Source: an uncultured Paracoccaceae bacterium
GTDB taxonomy: Bacteria > Pseudomonadota > Alphaproteobacteria > Rhodobacterales > Rhodobacteraceae
DNA: 64,000 bases
Reading direction: 5' to 3'
Assembly (NCBI GenBank): GCA_951812305.1
Contig: CATOSB010000004.1
Location: 310,001 to 374,000, forward strand
The position numbers and the translations under genes are program-made. Positions 6,166 through 54,150 of this stretch are shown here, in pieces; the first letter of the stretch is position 1; each line of letters starts with the position of its first letter. The notes beneath the pieces were generated by a model that was given only the letters and a program-made list of their open reading frames with translations, was not told the origin of the DNA and did not search any database.

Positions 6166-7463
6166 CGGAACAAAACCCCGCAACCCTATCGGACAGGGTG
6201 CTTGGGAGTTACGTAAGCTTTACGATTTCTGGTGTCGGCGGAACTACTCTTCTGGACTTCGTCACAGCCGACGCCATCCAGTGTTTCTGCGCTGGCACCC
6301 GCATCGCCACCGCCGATGGGCCGGTCGCGGTTGAGGATCTGACCCCGGGCACCGAGATCGCGCTCGCCGATGGCACCACCGCGCCGCTGCGCTGGCTGGG
6401 CCGGCAAGACGTCGCGCCGCGCGTTCTGCACCCGGCCAAGATCAACCCGGTCTGCATTACCGCCGGTGCCCTGGGTGACGGACTGCCAGAGCGGGACCTA
6501 TACGTCTCGGGCGATCACGCGGTGGTTCTGGACGGAATGCTGATCAATGCCAGCGCGCTGGTCAATGGCCGCACGATCTATCAGGTTCACGACATGCCGC
6601 TGGACGGCTTCACCTATTACCACATCGAGTTGGACACACATGCGGTGCTGCTGGCCGAGGGCTGCCCGTCCGAGAGCTATCTCGACGTCCCCGACCGCAC
6701 ATCCTTCGTCAACGGCGAAGAACGCGCGGACGCACCGCCGATCCCGGAAATGGACTTGCCACGTATCTCTTCGCGGCGGCTGGTGCCGGAAACCATCGTC
6801 GCGCGGTTGGCGCGGCGGTTGCCGAACCGGGCAGCCTGACCCGAGATTTAGGTGCGACCAGTGAAACAATTGCCGGTCGGCAGCCATCCTGTGTTCATTC
6901 GGTTTGAAATTACACCGGTCCTGTGCTTTGATTTGGCTGGCGAAATCAAAGGGATACCGCGACCATGACTGGATCGGACAGGACCGGCACAGATGCGTCC
7001 GTCAAAGACGGGCCATTCGATGTCGAGGAAACCTTGACCCGCATCATGCAGCACCAATCAGCCGGTCGGTTCGCAGAAGCGGGCGAGCTTTTGGACATGC
7101 TTTTGCGGCATAATCCCGGCCACGCGAAGCTGACGCATTACAAGGGCTACAACCTGCTGCAACAGGGCGAGACCGAACGCGGTATGGAAATGATCAAATC
7201 CGCGATGGATCAGGAGCCCGATGATCCGGTGCAAATGTGTGATTACGGCGCGTTACTTGCCCAGTCGGGCAAGCTGGAAGAAGCGATGGAGTATTTTCAA
7301 TCCGCCGCCGAGATCGCGCCAAACTATTCCGTTGCGCGCAGCAATCTGGGTGGCGCATTGGTTCTGGACAAAAAATTCGCGCGCGCCATCGGACACCTTG
7401 AGAAGGCGATAGAACTGGACGGCAGTCTTCTTGATGCCCACACCAATCTGGCGGCGGCTTATA

Positions 7464-8628
7464 CCAAGGGTGCTTCAAAATGACTCAGCTATGGATTTTG
7501 GGTACCGCCTGAGGTGCTGAGGTGATTCAAGATTGGCAAAGGAGACCACCGATGCCAGCCAGGATACCGATGCGAGCCGATTTTACCGCCAATGATCTGC
7601 GCAAGCTTGCCGCAGAGAGTTCTGATGCCCGGCAGAGCCGACGGCTTTTGTCGCTTGCCGCTATCGCCGATGGCATGTCGCGTGGGGCTGCGGCCCGCAT
7701 TGGCGGGATGGACCGGCAAACGCTCAGGGACTGGGTGCTCCGTTTCAACGCTGATGGTCCAGCGGGGCTGCTGGATCGGCAGCGAGGAGGCTCGCGATCC
7801 CGCCTTGACAATGCGCAACTGGATGAACTGGCGGCTCTTGTCGAGACCGGTCCTGATCCTGAAAAGGACGGTGTCGTCCGCTGGCGGCGGGTCGATTTGA
7901 AGAATGTGATCAAGGCGCGTTTTGGCGTCGACTATCACGAGCGCCATGTGGGGCAGATTCTGCACAATCTGGGCTTTTCCCACATCAGCGCACGCCCTCA
8001 GCACCCGGGGCAGGACGTGCAGGTCATTGAGGATTTCAAAAAAACTTCGGCGACAATCTGAAGGAGACGCTTCAGGGGGTGCCGCCGGACAAACCCGTCG
8101 AAATCTGGTTCCAGGACGAGATGCGTCTCGGTCAGAAGAACACCCGCGTCCGCCAGTGGGCACGCAAGGGCACACGGCCCCGCCAGCCCGCCGATCAGCG
8201 TTACCAAAATGCGTATCTTTTTGGCGCCATCTGCCCCGAACGCGGCACCGGCGCGGCGATCATGATGCCAGCAGCCGACACCTATGCGATGCAGCGCCAC
8301 CTGGAAGAAATCAGCAAAATTGTCTCCGATGGCGCCCACGCCGTCATCCTCATGGACCAAGCCGGCTGGCACACGACATCCGCTCTGGAAATCCCGCAAA
8401 ACCTGTCGCTCATGTTTCTGCCGCCCAAATCACCAGAGCTGAATCCAACCGAAAACATTTGGCAATATCTCCGCCAGACATGGCTCGCAAACCGGACGTT
8501 CGACACATATGACGCGATTCTCGACGCGGGGTGCGAGGCCTGGAACAACCTCATCGCAAGACCGCAAACCATCACATCCATCGCAAGCCGCAACTGGGCG
8601 AAAGTCGGTCAGATTGAATAACCCTTGG
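7464..8628 (+). mobile_element. IS630-family element, 1165 bp
   Basis: Termini CCAAGGGTGCTTCAAAATGA.../...TTGAATAACCCTTGG; TA duplication at 7462-7463 and 8629-8630; identical-length copy at 62581-63745. Confidence 0.95.
7522..8621 (+). CDS. IS630 transposase in two overlapping frames, probably joined by a -1 frameshift
   Basis: ORF A 7522..8061 (HTH region) ends ...IEDFKKTSATI*. ORF B in the -1 frame continues ...KKNFGDNLKETLQGVPPDKPVEIWFQDEMRLGQKNTRVRQ...PELNPTENIWQYLR (DDE). A7C run at the junction. Confidence 0.88.
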
Positions 8629-9599
8629 TATTACATGCAAACCAATCAATTCGACAAGGCCGTCAACGTTCTGTTCAAGGCATTGGCCATCGACCCGCAA
8701 TCTGTGGGCGCGCATATCCAGCTTTCTGCCGCGCTATACAGACGCGAACGTTATGAAAGCGCCGAACACCACGCGCGTCGCGCGATTGAACTGAACCCGG
8801 CCGCTGGCGAGGCCTACTTACACCTGGGCAATGCGCTGGCGTCTTCCGGAAAAATTGATGAGGCGGCCGACGAACTGTTGAAGGTTGCCAACAAGCCACC
8901 AGTTGGATTGCCCGCCCTGTCGCGGCTTATCCATTTGCGCAAGACCAAGCCGGGCTCGCCAGAGTTGCAGATACTGGAGAAGTTGCTTGAGCGGGCCGAC
9001 AAGATGCGCGACGAGCCGACGGCCACGGTGCATTACGCCGCTGGCAAGGCCTATGACGATCTTGGTGATTATGATCGCGCGTTTGAGCACTTCCACGCCG
9101 CCAATGAAATCAACAAAACACTGCATCCATATGATGCGAAAAACGGTACCGAACAGGTCGAGCGGCTGAAAGAATTCTGTTCGCGCGAATTGATGGCGCG
9201 TTGCGAAGGCGCGGGCATTCAGGACGTCGCGCCGATCTTTATCTGCGGCATGCCCCGGTCCGGGACGACGTTGATGGACCAGATGTTTTCGCGCCATCCG
9301 AAGGTTCAGGCCGGTGGCGAGTTACGCGCATCGATGATTGCATTGGGGCAAAGTACGGCGATCCGCAAAGCGCTGCAGGAAGAGGCGCCTGATGCAGAGG
9401 TGACCGCGGATGATTTCACCCGGCTGGGCGAGGCCTACGTCGCCGCCGTCCGGCAGGAAGGCATTCGCTCGGAGTATCTGTCGGACAAGATGCCTGTGAA
9501 CTATCGCTATATTGGTCTGTTGTCGCTGGCGTTGCCTCGCGCGAAGTTCCTGATCATGCGACGCCATCCACTGGATTGCCTGCTCTCAAACTACTTTCA

Positions 9600-9860
9600 G
9601 AGTGGCTGTCCGACAAGGATCAGGGTCAGCGTCCTGCGGGAACCGAGCACGTCGAGCGAACGGCCGAAGGCAATCACCTCACGTCGAATGCGCTCGCCTG
9701 AACCCAGCGTCGTATCTTGCAGAAGTACAAGGTCGAGCGACTGCTCAGCCGTCAGTACGGCATCGAAGCTGAATGTGGCGGTGCCGATCCCGAATGGCTG
9801 CTGGACAGTTCGATAGCCTTTGCTCTTCAGCAGTCCGATCGCGCGCTCGAGCGGGCTCAC
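9600..9860 (-). pseudogene. Uncharacterised protein translationally coupled to the SIR2-like gene, 3' truncated
   Basis: MSPLERAIGLLKSKGYRTVQQPFGIGTATFSFDAVLTAEQSLDLVLLQDTTLGSGERIRREVIAFGRSLDVLGSRRTLTLILVG...; its ATG overlaps the stop of the SIR2-like ORF (ATGA); homology is lost at the 9600 junction. Confidence 0.6.
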
Positions 9861-11139
9861 AGGCTTGCACTCCTCTTGAATGCGCCGATCAGATCCGCAG
9901 CGTCCACTGCGGTGTCGATCACCGAGGTCATACAGATTTCGCGAAGTCCAATCTTGCCAGTCCTACCCTTGGGTCCCGACGGCGAGCGAGCTTGCCTTGC
10001 CTTGGATGAAGCGCTCAACAGCAGAACAGTATCATCGGAATCGGGATCTATATGGCCACCTTGTATCATTGCTCCGGCCACGTTGTCATTGGCCGCGAGG
10101 AAAACGCGTGTAACGCGCGCACCCTGTAATAGGTTGATCGGCGTTGCCGTAGCCGTGCCCGCGGAAATCGACCAGTCACCTCCGTCTGCGCCTTTGCCAA
10201 GGAGCGCAAGCGCGACGGCTGCCTGCCGTAGACCCATTGGCTCGGGCACATCAGCGATCTGCTGAATTGGCTCCGTCGACAACGGAATATAGCGACCGGT
10301 GTTGGATCTGCCGTGATGATAGAGGTCGAATCCTAGCACCATCGCTGCGATAAGAGTGCGAATGAAATCGAGGCGCTCTGGTTCGGCTGCAGTTGCCGCC
10401 GCATCACGAATTTGGCGTAAACCATCCTTGATGGAATTTCTCTCGGCAGAATTCCACGCTGTCGGCATACCTAGGTCCGCCAGCGCACCCGCCTTAAGCT
10501 CAAGGACCGTAAGTAGGAGCGCGAGCAGCAATGGTTTGGCGAAGGCGCGAACCCTTGCCGCCTCCTCGATCGCGGCCCGATGCGGGGCATATTGATCTCC
10601 GTAAGCGCTGGCAAGTATTCCGCGTTGGCCACCGGAGAGTGCGTCCTCGGCAAAGAGGAATGCAGTCGGCGCCACGTTCCATTCCCATCCGCTCGCTTGG
10701 GCGCCATTGACGAATATCTGCTGAATGTCGGTATCCTGCGCTGAGAAGCCAATCATCAGCGTTCGGCGTTGCTGTACTAATGCCGTCAGGTGGTCGCGCA
10801 TCACTGTATAGGCGGCGTTGACCCCGTATTGGTTAATCTGCGGGGTGCGTGCGATCAACAGCGGCCGATAGACAGCAGCGTCTTCAACCGCACGAACCGC
10901 GCAACCATGATATTTGAGAAGCTTCGCGCGGCCGACGGCGTCCTGGAAATCGGCCGCTCTGATGCAGACGTCGATCTTCGTACCAACTGCCCCCGTCAGC
11001 ATGCGTTCAGCGGCCTCGATCAGGTAATCCCAGTTGGCTGAGGTGATATCGCGAAAGGCGCCCTCAAGCGTCAGCATCACGACGCAGAGATGTTCGACGT
11101 CTGGGTCGTCACCGGTAAAGCTGCCTGGCACATCGACCG
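9857..11139 (-). pseudogene. SIR2-like domain protein, N-terminus removed by IS256
   Basis: ...DITSANWDYLIEAAERMLTG...KLLKYHGCAVRAVEDAAVYRPLLIARTPQINQY...DHLTALVQQRRTLMIGFSAQDTDIQQIF matches the N-W-D-x-L-I-E / HG / (L/M)GFSxxDxDI pattern of SIR2_2-type domains. The N-terminal Rossmann part is absent; the nominal start lies in the IS end. Confidence 0.7.
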
Positions 11140-12200
11140 GAGTTATTGTCAAATCTGGTGTTTGCGGGATCTTTCATGCGGCGGCGGTTTCGGTCTGGGT
11201 TTGCTTGATGCCGTCTTTGAAATTGACGCCTTGGATGACGTCGGCGAGATGATTGAAGCCGCGAAGTTTGCGCCAGTTTTGTTCGGCGCACTGCCCCAGT
11301 TTGAAGATCATGTGGAGCATGCCGTCGCGGGCCAGACAGCCCTTTGAGCGCTTGGTGCGATGACGGATCGTGGCAAAGGCGGATTCAATTGGATTGGTCG
11401 TTCGGATGCTTTGCCAATGCATTGCGGGAAAATCGTAGAATGCCAGCAGTTCGGTTCGATCTTTCTGAAGCGAGGCGGTGGCTTTGGGGTACTTGTCTTC
11501 AAACGTTTTCACGAAGAGATCGAACGCTTGTTCAGCTGACTTGCGCGTTTCAGCGCGCCAGATATCGTGCAGCATCGTTTTGGCTTTTGGCTGGGTGGAC
11601 TTGGGAAAACAGTTGAGGACGTTGCCCGTCTTATGCACCCAGCAGCGTTGTTGAGGTGTGCCCGGATAGGTTTCTTCAAGAGCGGCCCAGAATCCCAGAG
11701 CACCGTCTCCGATGGCCAATTTTGGAGTGTTGAGACCGCGTTCTCTGAGGCCGATTAGAACCTCCCTCCAGCTCTGTGTGCTTTCACGAGTGCCGTCCTC
11801 GATTGCCAGAAATTGTTTCTGACCACGGGTATTTACGCCGATCACGACCAGCGCGCGCAACTTGTGATCCTCGCCGCGTAAGCCACTGTGAATACCGTCG
11901 GCCCAGATGTAGACCCACTCGTCTTGGGACAGGTCTGCGGTGCGCCACGCCCTGTATTCAGCGGCCCATTCGGCCTTCAATCTGGCAACTGTTTTGGCCG
12001 AAAATCCGGTGGCATTAGCCCCGAGCAAACCCTTCAGCGCCGTTCCCATTTCGCCAGTGGAAATGCCTTTGAGGTAGAGCCAGGGGATCGCAGCCTGCAG
12101 CGTCTTGGTCTTGCGCACGTAGGGCGGTACGAGCGCGGAGCGGAAACTCACTGGCTTGCCGGTTTTCGAGCGTATCTTTGGAATCTCTACGGTCACAGGT
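11140..12200 (-). mobile_element. Truncated IS256-family element (transposase 5' portion missing)
   Basis: Terminus GAGTTATTGTCAAATCTGGTGTTTGCG as in the complete copy at 44019. Nearly identical to 44019-45080, then diverges at gtcacaggt|cgaacactg. Confidence 0.93.
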
Positions 12201-12278
12201 CGAACACTGCCAAACCGAGCTCCGCTCACGTTTATACACGTGCACTTTGCCGCCCAGAATCGAGTGTTTTTCCGCCAT
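12201..12278 (-). pseudogene. Site-specific (tyrosine-type) integrase, N-terminal fragment
   Basis: ATG at 12278: MAEKHSILGGKVHVYKRERSSVWQCST, resembling integrase N-termini, cut by the IS256 fragment; lies at the 3' side of tRNA-Asn and reads away from it. Confidence 0.6.
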
Positions 12279-12390
12279 TGCCGCAGACACCTCCACACAG
12301 TGTGATTGTGTGTAAGGTATGTGAAAGGCCATTTTTGGCCAATACCCAATTTCACAACTCAGCTCATGTGATTGTAATTATTGGGATTTT

Positions 12391-12465
12391 TGGCTCCGGC
12401 GGTAGGGATCGAACCTACGACCAATTGATTAACAGTCAACTGCTCTACCGCTGAGCTACGCCGGA
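12391..12465 (-). tRNA. tRNA-Asn (GTT anticodon)
   Basis: Minus strand TCCGGCGTAGCTCAGCGGTAGAGCAGTTGACTGTTAATCAATTGGTCGTAGGTTCGATCCCTACCGCCGGAGCCA: cloverleaf consistent, TTCGATC T-loop, encoded CCA. Confidence 0.95.
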
Positions 12466-29308: not shown

Positions 29309-30498
29309 CTTACCACCCTTCAAAATTTCCGGATCTGATTTGACGTTTGTCTGATCTGTGTGATTCAAGGAGTCTCCACTGCTGATATTGGAGGCTGGTT
29401 TGTTGGGAAATGTTTGTTTTTCAGAGCTTTATTCGAAGGTTGAGGCGGATTTTCAGGACCGCTTGCTCGGGTATCACAAGTCGCGCCGGGAGGGATTGTG
29501 CATCATAGCAAGCGTGATTTTGAACACGCGCAGCGTCAATCTGATGGAAAATGCGGCTGCTCTGCCCCGCGATATCGGCTCTGTGGACCACCGCTATCAA
29601 TACATTTCGCGGGTTCTGGGCAATCCTCACATCGATACTGATGAGATCATGCAGGCCTATGTTGGTGAAATTTTCCGCCGCCAGTGTGAGGCCGGAGAAA
29701 CGATTGTGGTGGCCCTTGATCAAAGCAAGCTCAACGAAGGGCATGAGGTTTTGATGTTATCGGTGCGGATGCGGGATCGGGCCCTCCCGGTCGCCTGGCG
29801 TGTACGCCAGACCAAAGGGCCGATTGGATGGCGCGTGCAACATGAGCTTTTGGAAGCAGTCCGCCCATGGCTCCCGGCGGATGCGCGTGTGTTGCTGGCG
29901 GGAGATCGGTTTTATGGAACCGCCCGATTGGTCGCATGGTGCCAGGAGGCTGGATGGGACTACCGGCTGCGCATGAAGGGAAATATCACACTGCAACATC
30001 AGGGTGGCGAGATGATGACGCGCGAAATTGCCCAACTGATGCCCGAAGGGCTTGTAAACGCTGAGCTTTACGGAACGGGCGTCTTTAGCAACATTGGAGT
30101 GCTTCACGAAGAGGGGCACAAAGAGCCTTGGATTATTGCCATGAATGCAGCACCGTCCGAGTACAAGGTGCTCGATTATGGAATGCGTTGGGGAATTGAA
30201 GCCATGTTCTCCGACTTCAAAACCCGGGGCTTTGAAATTACTCAAAGCCAGATCAAAAAGCCGGATCGATTGGCCCGCCTCATTTTGGTGCTGGCAATCG
30301 CCATGTACTGGGCTGTTTCAACCGGAGCAAACGAAGAGCACCACGTCGCAATACGCGGCGAAAAAAGGGGATTCGAAAAGCCCGAAGGTCCTTATGCTCT
30401 CTCTTCAAGACAGGCCTTCGTGCTATCCGACGATGCCTCGCAGGTTATGCCAAAATCCCCAAGCTCTGGGATGTCTGGCTAAATTGAAGGGTGGTAAG
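29309..30498 (+). mobile_element. IS4-family element, copy A (1190 bp)
   Basis: IRs CTTACCACCCTTCAA.../...TTGAAGGGTGGTAAG; 9-bp TSD GCGCAGCCG at 29300-29308 and 30499-30507. Confidence 0.96.
29388..30482 (+). CDS. IS4-family transposase
   Basis: 364 aa; ALDQSKLNEGHEVLML, LLAGDRFYGTARL, and YGMRWGIEAMFSDFK (Y-x2-R-x3-E-x6-K signature of IS4). Confidence 0.95.
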   Translation: MEAGLLGNVCFSELYSKVEADFQDRLLGYHKSRREGLCIIASVILNTRSVNLMENAAALPRDIGSVDHRYQYISRVLGNPHIDTDEIMQAYVGEIFRRQCEAGETIVVALDQSKLNEGHEVLMLSVRMRDRALPVAWRVRQTKGPIGWRVQHELLEAVRPWLPADARVLLAGDRFYGTARLVAWCQEAGWDYRLRMKGNITLQHQGGEMMTREIAQLMPEGLVNAELYGTGVFSNIGVLHEEGHKEPWIIAMNAAPSEYKVLDYGMRWGIEAMFSDFKTRGFEITQSQIKKPDRLARLILVLAIAMYWAVSTGANEEHHVAIRGEKRGFEKPEGPYALSSRQAFVLSDDASQVMPKSPSSGMSG

Positions 30499-32431: not shown

Positions 32432-33621
32432 CTTACCACCCTTCAAAATTTCCGGATCTGATTTGACGTTTGTCTGATCTGTGTGATTCAAGGAGTCTCC
32501 ACTGCTGACATTGGAGGCTGGTTTGTTGGGAAATGTTTGTTTTTCAGAGCTTTATTCGAAGGTTGAGGCGGATTTTCAGGACCGCTTGCTCGGGTATCAC
32601 AAGTCGCGCCGGGAGGGATTGTGCATCATAGCAAGCGTGATTTTGAACACGCGCAGCGTCAATCTGATGGAAAATGCGGCTGCTTTGCCCCGCGATATCG
32701 GCTCTGTGGACCACCGCTATCAATACATTTCGCGGGTTCTGGGCAATCCTCACATCGATACTGATGAGATCATGCAGGCCTATGTTGGTGAAATTTTCCG
32801 CCGCCAGTGTGAGGCCGGAGAAACGATTGTGGTGGCCCTTGATCAAAGCAAGCTCAACGAAGGGCATGAGGTTTTGATGTTATCGGTGCGGATGCGGGAT
32901 CGGGCCCTCCCGGTCGCCTGGCGTGTACGCCAGACCAAAGGGCCGATTGGATGGCGCGTGCAACATGAGCTTTTGGAAGCAGTCCGCCCATGGCTCCCGG
33001 CGGATGCGCGTGTGTTGCTGGCGGGAGATCGGTTTTATGGAACCGCCCGATTGGTCGCATGGTGCCAGGAGGCTGGATGGGACTACCGGCTGCGCATGAA
33101 GGGAAATATCACACTGCAACATCAGGGTGGCGAGATGATGACGCGCGAAATTGCCCAACTGATGCCCGAAGGGCTTGTAAACGCTGAGCTTTACGGAACG
33201 GGCGTCTTTAGCAACATTGGAGTGCTTCACGAAGAGGGGCACAAAGAGCCTTGGATTATTGCCATGAATGCAGCACCGTCCGAGTACAAGGTGCTCGATT
33301 ATGGAATGCGTTGGGGAATTGAAGCCATGTTCTCCGACTTCAAAACCCGGGGCTTTGAAATTACTCAAAGCCAGATCAAAAAGCCGGATCGATTGGCCCG
33401 CCTCATTTTGGTGCTGGCAATCGCCATGTACTGGGCTGTTTCAACCGGAGCAAACGAAGAGCACCACGTCGCAATACGCGGCGAAAAAAGGGGATTCGAA
33501 AAGCCCGAAGGTCCTTATGCTCTCTCTTCAAGACAGGCCTTCGTGCTATCCGACGATGCCTCGCAGGTTATGCCAAAATCCCCAAGCTCTGGGATGTCTG
33601 GCTAAATTGAAGGGTGGTAAG
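32432..33621 (+). mobile_element. IS4-family element, copy B (tandem array unit 1)
   Basis: 1190 bp with the same IRs as copy A. Confidence 0.95.
32511..33605 (+). CDS. IS4-family transposase (copy B)
   Basis: 364 aa identical to copy A. Confidence 0.95.
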   Translation: MEAGLLGNVCFSELYSKVEADFQDRLLGYHKSRREGLCIIASVILNTRSVNLMENAAALPRDIGSVDHRYQYISRVLGNPHIDTDEIMQAYVGEIFRRQCEAGETIVVALDQSKLNEGHEVLMLSVRMRDRALPVAWRVRQTKGPIGWRVQHELLEAVRPWLPADARVLLAGDRFYGTARLVAWCQEAGWDYRLRMKGNITLQHQGGEMMTREIAQLMPEGLVNAELYGTGVFSNIGVLHEEGHKEPWIIAMNAAPSEYKVLDYGMRWGIEAMFSDFKTRGFEITQSQIKKPDRLARLILVLAIAMYWAVSTGANEEHHVAIRGEKRGFEKPEGPYALSSRQAFVLSDDASQVMPKSPSSGMSG

Positions 33622-33631
33622 CCGATTGGCC

Positions 33632-34821
33632 CTTACCACCCTTCAAAATTTCCGGATCTGATTTGACGTTTGTCTGATCTGTGTGATTCAAGGAGTCTCC
33701 ACTGCTGACATTGGAGGCTGGTTTGTTGGGAAATGTTTGTTTTTCAGAGCTTTATTCGAAGGTTGAGGCGGATTTTCAGGACCGCTTGCTCGGGTATCAC
33801 AAGTCGCGCCGGGAGGGATTGTGCATCATAGCAAGCGTGATTTTGAACACGCGCAGCGTCAATCTGATGGAAAATGCGGCTGCTCTGCCCCGCGATATCG
33901 GCTCTGTGGACCACCGCTATCAATACATTTCGCGGGTTCTGGGCAATCCTCACATCGATACTGATGAGATCATGCAGGCCTATGTTGGTGAAATTTTCCG
34001 CCGCCAGTGTGAGGCCGGAGAAACGATTGTGGTGGCCCTTGATCAAAGCAAGCTCAACGAAGGGCATGAGGTTTTGATGTTATCGGTGCGGATGCGGGAT
34101 CGGGCCCTCCCGGTCGCCTGGCGTGTACGCCAGACCAAAGGGCCGATTGGATGGCGCGTGCAACATGAGCTTTTGGAAGCAGTCCGCCCATGGCTCCCGG
34201 CGGATGCGCGTGTGTTGCTGGCGGGAGATCGGTTTTATGGAACCGCCCGATTGGTCGTATGGTGCCAGGAGGCTGGATGGGACTACCGGCTGCGCATGAA
34301 GGGAAATATCACACTGCAACATCAGGGTGGCGAGATGATGACGCGCGAAATTGCCCAACTGATGCCCGAAGGGCTTGTAAACGCTGAGCTTTACGGAACG
34401 GGCGTCTTTAGCAACATTGGAGTGCTTCACGAAGAGGGGCACAAAGAGCCTTGGATTATTGCCATGAATGCAGCACCGTCCGAGTACAAGGTGCTCGATT
34501 ATGGAATGCGTTGGGGAATTGAAGCCATGTTCTCCGACTTCAAAACCCGGGGCTTTGAAATTACTCAAAGCCAGATCAAAAAGCCGGATCGATTGGCCCG
34601 CCTCATTTTGGTGCTGGCAATCGCCATGTACTGGGCTGTTTCAACCGGAGCAAACGAAGAGCACCACGTCGCAATACGCGGCGAAAAAAGGGGATTCGAA
34701 AAGCCCGAAGGTCCTTATGCTCTCTCTTCAAGACAGGCCTTCGTGCTATCCGACGATGCCTCGCAGGTTATGCCAAAATCCCCAAGCTCTGGGATGTCTG
34801 GCTAAATTGAAGGGTGGTAAG
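33632..34821 (+). mobile_element. IS4-family element, copy C (tandem array unit 2)
   Basis: 1190 bp; separated from B by 10 bp (ccgattggcc). Confidence 0.95.
33711..34805 (+). CDS. IS4-family transposase (copy C, one A-to-V substitution)
   Basis: LVVWCQEAG instead of LVAWCQEAG (ggtcgtatgg versus ggtcgcatgg). Confidence 0.95.
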   Translation: MEAGLLGNVCFSELYSKVEADFQDRLLGYHKSRREGLCIIASVILNTRSVNLMENAAALPRDIGSVDHRYQYISRVLGNPHIDTDEIMQAYVGEIFRRQCEAGETIVVALDQSKLNEGHEVLMLSVRMRDRALPVAWRVRQTKGPIGWRVQHELLEAVRPWLPADARVLLAGDRFYGTARLVVWCQEAGWDYRLRMKGNITLQHQGGEMMTREIAQLMPEGLVNAELYGTGVFSNIGVLHEEGHKEPWIIAMNAAPSEYKVLDYGMRWGIEAMFSDFKTRGFEITQSQIKKPDRLARLILVLAIAMYWAVSTGANEEHHVAIRGEKRGFEKPEGPYALSSRQAFVLSDDASQVMPKSPSSGMSG

Positions 34822-34831
34822 CCGATTGGCC

Positions 34832-36021
34832 CTTACCACCCTTCAAAATTTCCGGATCTGATTTGACGTTTGTCTGATCTGTGTGATTCAAGGAGTCTCC
34901 ACTGCTGACATTGGAGGCTGGTTTGTTGGGAAATGTTTGTTTTTCAGAGCTTTATTCGAAGGTTGAGGCGGATTTTCAGGACCGCTTGCTCGGGTATCAC
35001 AAGTCGCGCCGGGAGGGATTGTGCATCATAGCAAGCGTGATTTTGAACACGCGCAGCGTCAATCTGATGGAAAATGCGGCTGCTCTGCCCCGCGATATCG
35101 GCTCTGTGGACCACCGCTATCAATACATTTCGCGGGTTCTGGGCAATCCTCACATCGATACTGATGAGATCATGCAGGCCTATGTTGGTGAAATTTTCCG
35201 CCGCCAGTGTGAGGCCGGAGAAACGATTGTGGTGGCCCTTGATCAAAGCAAGCTCAACGAAGGGCATGAGGTTTTGATGTTATCGGTGCGGATGCGGGAT
35301 CGGGCCCTCCCGGTCGCCTGGCGTGTACGCCAGACCAAAGGGCCGATTGGATGGCGCGTGCAACATGAGCTTTTGGAAGCAGTCCGCCCATGGCTCCCGG
35401 CGGATGCGCGTGTGTTGCTGGCGGGAGATCGGTTTTATGGAACCGCCCGATTGGTCGCATGGTGCCAGGAGGCTGGATGGGACTACCGGCTGCGCATGAA
35501 GGGAAATATCACACTGCAACATCAGGGTGGCGAGATGATGACGCGCGAAATTGCCCAACTGATGCCCGAAGGGCTTGTAAACGCTGAGCTTTACGGAACG
35601 GGCGTCTTTAGCAACATTGGAGTGCTTCACGAGGAGGGGCACAAAGAGCCTTGGATTATTGCCATGAATGCAGCACCGTCCGAGTACAAGGTGCTCGATT
35701 ATGGAATGCGTTGGGGAATTGAAGCCATGTTCTCCGACTTCAAAACCCGGGGCTTTGAAATTACTCAAAGCCAGATCAAAAAGCCGGATCGATTGGCCCG
35801 CCTCATTTTGGTGCTGGCAATCGCCATGTACTGGGCTGTTTCAACCGGAGCAAACGAAGAGCACCACGTCGCAATACGCGGCGAAAAAAGGGGATTCGAA
35901 AAGCCCGAAGGTCCTTATGCTCTCTCTTCAAGACAGGCCTTCGTGCTATCCGACGATGCCTCGCAGGTTATGCCAAAATCCCCAAGCTCTGGGATGTCTG
36001 GCTAAATTGAAGGGTGGTAAG
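34832..36021 (+). mobile_element. IS4-family element, copy D (tandem array unit 3)
   Basis: 1190 bp; separated from C by the same 10 bp; right flank ccgattggcaaata... resumes moeA. Confidence 0.95.
34911..36005 (+). CDS. IS4-family transposase (copy D)
   Basis: 364 aa identical to copy A. Confidence 0.95.
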   Translation: MEAGLLGNVCFSELYSKVEADFQDRLLGYHKSRREGLCIIASVILNTRSVNLMENAAALPRDIGSVDHRYQYISRVLGNPHIDTDEIMQAYVGEIFRRQCEAGETIVVALDQSKLNEGHEVLMLSVRMRDRALPVAWRVRQTKGPIGWRVQHELLEAVRPWLPADARVLLAGDRFYGTARLVAWCQEAGWDYRLRMKGNITLQHQGGEMMTREIAQLMPEGLVNAELYGTGVFSNIGVLHEEGHKEPWIIAMNAAPSEYKVLDYGMRWGIEAMFSDFKTRGFEITQSQIKKPDRLARLILVLAIAMYWAVSTGANEEHHVAIRGEKRGFEKPEGPYALSSRQAFVLSDDASQVMPKSPSSGMSG

Positions 36022-52960: not shown

Positions 52961-54150
52961 CTTACCACCCTTCAATTTAGCCAGACATCCCAGAGCTTGG
53001 GGATTTTGGCATAACCTGCGAGGCATCGTCGGATAGCACGAAGGCCTGTCTTGAAGAGAGAGCATAAGGACCTTCGGGCTTTTCGAATCCCCTTTTTTCG
53101 CCGCGTATTGCGACGTGGTGCTCTTCGTTTGCTCCGGTTGAAACAGCCCAGTACATGGCGATTGCCAGCACCAAAATGAGGCGGGCCAATCGATCCGGCT
53201 TTTTGATCTGGCTTTGAGTAATTTCAAAGCCCCGGGTTTTGAAGTCGGAGAACATGGCTTCAATTCCCCAACGCATTCCATAATCGAGCACCTTGTACTC
53301 GGACGGTGCTGCATTCATGGCAATAATCCAAGGCTCTTTGTGCCCCTCTTCGTGAAGCACTCCAATGTTGCTAAAGACGCCCGTTCCGTAAAGCTCAGCG
53401 TTTACAAGCCCTTCGGGCATCAGTTGGGCAATTTCGCGCGTCATCATCTCGCCACCCTGATGTTGCAGTGTGATATTTCCCTTCATGCGCAGCCGGTAGT
53501 CCCATCCAGCCTCCTGGCACCATGCGACCAATCGGGCGGTTCCATAAAACCGATCTCCCGCCAGCAACACACGCGCATCCGCCGGGAGCCATGGGCGGAC
53601 TGCTTCCAAAAGCTCATGTTGCACGCGCCATCCAATCGGCCCTTTGGTCTGGCGTACACGCCAGGCGACCGGGAGGGCCCGATCCCGCATCCGCACCGAT
53701 AACATCAAAACCTCATGCCCTTCGTTGAGCTTGCTTTGATCAAGGGCCACCACAATCGTTTCTCCGGCCTCACACTGGCGGCGGAAAATTTCACCAACAT
53801 AGGCCTGCATGATCTCATCAGTATCGATGTGAGGATTGCCCAGAACCCGCGAAATGTATTGATAGCGGTGGTCCACAGAGCCGATATCGCGGGGCAAAGC
53901 AGCCGCATTTTCCATCAGATTGACGCTGCGCGTGTTCAAAATCACGCTTGCTATGATGCACAATCCCTCCCGGCGCGACTTGTGATACCCGAGCAAGCGG
54001 TCCTGAAAATCCGCCTCAACCTTCGAATAAAGCTCTGAAAAACAAACATTTCCCAACAAACCAGCCTCCAATATCAGCAGTGGAGACTCCTTGAATCACA
54101 CAGATCAGACAAACGTCAAATCAGATCCGGAAATTTTGAAGGGTGGTAAG
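52961..54150 (-). mobile_element. IS4-family element, copy E (1190 bp)
   Basis: Same IRs; 10-bp TSD TTTCACTTCG on both sides. Confidence 0.96.
52977..54071 (-). CDS. IS4-family transposase (copy E)
   Basis: 364 aa identical to copy A. Confidence 0.95.
   Translation of the reverse strand: MEAGLLGNVCFSELYSKVEADFQDRLLGYHKSRREGLCIIASVILNTRSVNLMENAAALPRDIGSVDHRYQYISRVLGNPHIDTDEIMQAYVGEIFRRQCEAGETIVVALDQSKLNEGHEVLMLSVRMRDRALPVAWRVRQTKGPIGWRVQHELLEAVRPWLPADARVLLAGDRFYGTARLVAWCQEAGWDYRLRMKGNITLQHQGGEMMTREIAQLMPEGLVNAELYGTGVFSNIGVLHEEGHKEPWIIAMNAAPSEYKVLDYGMRWGIEAMFSDFKTRGFEITQSQIKKPDRLARLILVLAIAMYWAVSTGANEEHHVAIRGEKRGFEKPEGPYALSSRQAFVLSDDASQVMPKSPSSGMSG

Follow-up and report, generated by a model that had tools for sequence, protein, structure and literature searches.

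Probable remnant of a three-gene operon with a SIR2 effector and a Rad50/SMC-like ATPase, with a Lamassu-like defence role proposed by analogy

The window considered here, a stretch of 64,000 nucleotides from an uncultured Paracoccaceae bacterium, carries on its minus strand the joined remains of two genes, with a deletion junction at one end and an insertion sequence, an integrase-like fragment and a tRNA gene at the other (Table 1). The first gene lies in a 431-aa open reading frame (9857-11152) that matches the Pfam family SIR2_2 (PF13289) at E = 4.1e-7 and 30.6 bits, above the curated cut-off of 24.5 bits, and the SIR2 proteins of intact relatives score 26.5-33.9 bits against the same model. 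The first-pass annotation had recognized the C-terminal part of a SIR2-like domain here, and the peptides that it quoted are all present in the frame. The first codons of the frame (11140-11152) are the end of the insertion sequence and not SIR2, and homology to intact relatives runs from 11139/11137 to the stop codon (66% identity, E = 5e-175), starting at residue 142 of 567 and covering residues 142-562 of the protein from Sphingopyxis (L005). In an alignment of the intact SIR2 proteins the NAD-site motif GSGIS (near the N-terminus) and the catalytic Asn/Asp/His motifs are present, and GSGIS, NWD, K-x-HG and G-x-S-x-QD are all invariant or nearly so. The remnant retains NWD, KYHG and GFSAQD in these columns and has lost the N-terminal 141 residues, GSGIS among them; any activity as an NAD-using enzyme is therefore very unlikely. 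SIR2_2 is the sole domain that profile scans found in the effector of this family, and an AlphaFold model of the protein built from five sequences (pLDDT 46) was too poor for use. The same genome has two more SIR2_2 genes, at C18:12449-12943 (L100) and C9:76266-76634 (L101), the latter adjoining a 496-aa gene; neither is a member of this family.

Table 1. Positions of the features at and around the operon remnant in the window.
Feature	Position	Strand	Remarks
Deletion junction	9597..9606	.	middle gene joins truncated TPR-sulfotransferase gene; homology on both sides stops here
Middle gene remnant (gene 2)	9600..9860	-	residues 1-87 of ~185; GTG start overlaps SIR2 stop
SIR2 effector gene remnant (gene 1)	9860..11139	-	C-terminal 427 residues/codons; stop codon 9857-9859
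IS256/Mutator-family element	11140..12207	-	PF00872 1.3e-55; cut at distal (12207) end; adjoins codon 142 of SIR2
Probable tyrosine integrase N-terminal remnant	12208..12332	-	weak match (E = 0.01) to annotated tyrosine-type recombinase; beside tRNA-Asn
tRNA-Asn(GTT)	12391..12465	-	ARAGORN

The second gene (9597-9860) overlaps the end of the SIR2 frame by ATGA/GTGA, just as the tight coupling noticed at first pass would have it, and its product is 70-75% identical to residues 1-91 of the corresponding intact proteins of 182-187 aa in Sphingopyxis (L005) and Novosphingobium (L006). Homology ends at 9600-9606 (residue 85-91 of about 185), and both genes are truncated, as had been claimed. The middle gene fragment has no match in Pfam, PADLOC or NCBIfam, and searches of PADLOC, NCBIfam and PDB sequences with the window fragments alone gave nothing useful; the earlier statement that the pair fits no named system stands, in that PADLOC, Pfam and NCBIfam offer none that genes 1 and 2 would match. 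A model of the middle protein of moderate confidence (pLDDT 79) finds nuclease folds as its best PDB matches, namely N.BspD6I, Bax1, Mus81-Eme1, Ecl18kI and PspGI, all at E >= 1.6e-3 and with a query TM of at most 0.41, which can be taken as a hint of a restriction-endonuclease-like fold and not as a finding.

How did this copy come to be broken? At the deletion junction the remainder of the middle gene was lost together with a whole ATPase gene and the 3' end of the sulfotransferase gene, and no insertion sequence lies at this joint. A whole-genome search found no ATPase of this operon family in the window or elsewhere in the genome. On the upstream side, the genome contains 41 near-identical matches, full or partial, to the IS256-family element. 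Most of them share its end at 11140, and most full copies extend beyond the point that corresponds to 12207, at about which the window copy stops. The fragment behind it, to which another stretch of the genome is 73% identical, is probably the remnant of an integrase and likely the anchor of a lost island, for which the tRNA-Asn gene is likely to have been the attachment site. The simplest history of the SIR2 side would be that an IS256-family element first inserted into the SIR2 gene and that a deletion then took the far end of the element, most of the integrase and the start of the SIR2 protein, NAD-site motif included; the ATPase and what else there was of the middle gene would have gone in a second deletion. 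What is left of the reading frame has no stops, and the loss of the operon was therefore probably recent. Judged from what its sequence has lost, the copy in the window is dead and non-functional.

The TPR-sulfotransferase gene (6965-9606), which lost its 3' end to the deletion that destroyed the operon, is also split by an IS630 element (7458-8633), and near-identical copies of the IS630 and IS256 elements, whether full or partial, number about 40 or more for each. This is a heavy expansion of insertion sequences, and the genome measures 7.18 Mb where most of the relatives listed have 3-5.5 Mb. At 32511-36005 there is a head-to-tail row of three near-identical transposase genes of 364 aa (IS4-like by eye), spaced exactly 1200 bp apart, and further copies lie at 29388-30482, within a comEC-like gene, and at 52977-54071.

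The nature of the lost gene comes from the relatives. Among GTDB contigs, a scan turned up the operon in Sphingopyxis sp. Root154 (L005:7578-12237; 66% identity) and Novosphingobium sp. BW1 (L006:1856-6530; 64%), and tblastn against plasmids returned 19 records, all from Rhizobiales genera, at about 31-47% identity, 11 of which are predicted to be conjugative. Genome searches show how patchy the distribution is: copies occur in 4 of 395 genomes at the level of the order and in 3 of 385 at that of the class, the copy in the window and a marginal match being counted in both, and a search of the phylum by the ATPase found 2 of 399 genomes, one of them outside the class. IMG/VR contributed two viral contigs with relatives of the operon and the INPHARED phages none; in all, intact relatives occur on plasmids, prophages and chromosomes. 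I read 22 related loci (L005-L012, L034, L035, L043-L052, L098 and L099), found by the SIR2 protein or independently by the ATPase, and each one has the SIR2 gene, then a middle gene of ~190 aa, then a Rad50/SMC-like ATPase of ~805 aa, in this order and mostly with 4-bp overlaps between neighbours. Some of these copies are damaged as well (L043 and L049 are broken up, and the ATPase of L051 is frameshifted), and the ATPase of L049, taken from the annotation, is cut short.

The first-pass annotation had proposed a two-gene module and a search for intact pairs. The search bears out the pairing, with both genes together in 22/22 loci, and overturns the number, for the same loci all add the ATPase. 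That the SIR2 gene and its partner form a defence system by themselves, with the ATPase a mere neighbour, agrees with the window itself, which carries just two of the genes, and is nonetheless very improbable when the ATPase lies directly downstream in every one of the 22 loci, which span several orders and two classes. Nor is the linkage an artefact of the query, since two loci found by the ATPase alone both carry genes 1 and 2.

With the third gene in hand, the comparison with known systems shifts. The first-pass annotation had named Thoeris ThsA, DSR and SIR2-HerA as systems in which SIR2-domain proteins act as NAD-depleting effectors, and a SIR2-family NADase-type effector domain is what the family has in common with SIR2-HerA, DSR1/DSR2, Thoeris ThsA and SIR2-APAZ with short pAgo. 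However, the operon contains no HerA, no single large DSR protein and no TIR or SLOG partner, and no pAgo; SIR2 is paired here with a small protein and an SMC-like ATPase, and the SIR2 proteins give weak, partial matches at most to the PADLOC models of SIR2 defence proteins. The identity of the third gene thus places the operon beside Lamassu/ABC-3C instead. In the intact relatives the ATPase conserves a Walker A of the form GxNGxGKT, a CPxC zinc hook (CPVC or CPIC), a signature of the GNLNTAALTLF type and DDP as Walker B, and its nearest solved relatives in the PDB are Rad50. It shares head motifs and zinc hook with Rad50/SbcC, yet it is shorter, has no Mre11/SbcD nuclease gene beside it and is coupled to SIR2.

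Lamassu/ABC-3C consists of an effector LmuA, a small LmuC and a Rad50-like LmuB, and SIR2 is among the effector domains of LmuA (PMC10586767). Like these systems, DdmABC included, the family has three adjacent overlapping genes for an effector, a small middle protein and a zinc-hook SMC/Rad50-like ATPase, an arrangement found in all 22 loci and in the window reduced by the lost ATPase, and like them it sits in defence islands and mobile elements. It is possible, if on the doubtful side, that the operon is a true member (LmuA-SIR2, LmuC, LmuB) that has diverged past the models: gene order, size classes, zinc hook and the reported SIR2 effectors all speak for this, as does the ATPase, which matches PADLOC LmuB profiles along most of their length (1e-31 to 1e-42), although the same profiles also match archaeal control genomes (PDLC03859 and PDLC03865 below 1e-20), probably through Rad50. 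A hit to LmuB by itself is therefore not enough to call Lamassu. Canonical loci scanned as controls (L089 and L092), which come from the same taxonomic order, match the LmuA, LmuB and LmuC models, reach 1e-120 to 1e-165 on LmuB and carry the Pfam domains CTD6/CTD7 and MC2/MC3, whereas the SIR2 effector here matches neither a Pfam ABC-3C CTD docking domain nor the PADLOC LmuA model, and the middle protein matches neither PADLOC LmuC nor Pfam MC. In hhalign comparisons the middle protein reaches a probability of 0.1% against canonical LmuC and the ATPase aligns with canonical LmuB over 50 columns only, around Walker A. Members of this ATPase family score more than 1000 bits with an HMM built for it, against a maximum of 39 for other proteins hit by LmuB profiles; the ATPase has ~805 aa in place of ~650, and its Walker B reads DDP where the canonical LmuBs checked have DQP or DSP. 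The weight of the negative results is limited by shallow alignments (Neff about 3). Given the archaeal and canonical controls, hhalign and the family HMM, the LmuB profile hits are no proof of membership, and, with the sequence tests of kinship either failed or unspecific, it is layout and setting that carry the analogy.

A separate class of three-component defence, so far uncatalogued, is the other way to read these differences, and I hold it tentatively, as somewhat short of an even bet: a Rad50-like sensor and a small protein, its fold nuclease-like and degenerate at most as a possibility, would control a SIR2 NADase, in parallel to Lamassu and derived from DNA-repair machinery. In either case the Lamassu-like family is uncatalogued in the sense that it goes unrecognized by the models used from PADLOC, Pfam and NCBIfam, the effector-middle-SMC layout being already known.

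The neighbourhoods of the relatives speak to function. That intact homologues would lie in defence-type surroundings was expected from the outset and is seen in many cases: the Sphingopyxis operon (L005) adjoins two type II restriction enzymes, a cytosine methyltransferase and a type II-associated helicase, and others lie near Hachiman HamA and a methylase (L011), a DUF2290 protein and its helicase (L009), a methyltransferase (L010), a toxin-antitoxin pair and an integrase (L045) or an AbiEii-type gene (L049). On a phage contig (L052:7998-12783) the intact operon stands between a minor tail gene and a tape-measure gene, and the damaged copy of L051 is beside a terminase-like gene. However, L007 and L043 lie among metabolic and transport genes without recognized defence neighbours, so the association with defence is frequent and not universal. 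Copies of this sort outside defence islands, together with the Rad50-like ATPase and the many copies on plasmids and phages, would also suit a DNA-damage response or a device for plasmid or prophage maintenance in which SIR2 is regulatory; I consider this unlikely, as the patchy distribution, the mobile settings and the frequent restriction-modification or Hachiman neighbours suit defence better.

On balance, the window probably holds the decayed remains of an operon of three genes, made up of a SIR2 effector, a small middle protein and a Rad50/SMC-like ATPase, that served in an abortive defence of the Lamassu kind, the last part by analogy. The family, its operon structure, the truncations and the genomic settings are observed directly, and sensing, NAD hydrolysis and the defence role of the intact operon are inferred. 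By that analogy the intact family most likely works like Lamassu and probably kills or stalls the cell upon attack by phages or plasmids: the zinc-hooked ATPase, with the middle protein, would sense DNA ends or structures of phage or plasmid origin as aberrant or foreign; a rearrangement dependent on ATP and DNA would then free or cluster the SIR2 protein, and the latter would hydrolyse NAD+ so that the infected cell stops, in the way of LmuB-LmuC-LmuA.

For this bacterium, the window offers a clear case of a probable defence operon erased through insertion-sequence activity. For the family, if the intact copies do what their parts suggest, a Rad50-type DNA sensor would be directly linked to NAD+ depletion, and the effector-middle-SMC layout would have a version that escapes the models of PADLOC, Pfam and NCBIfam used here.
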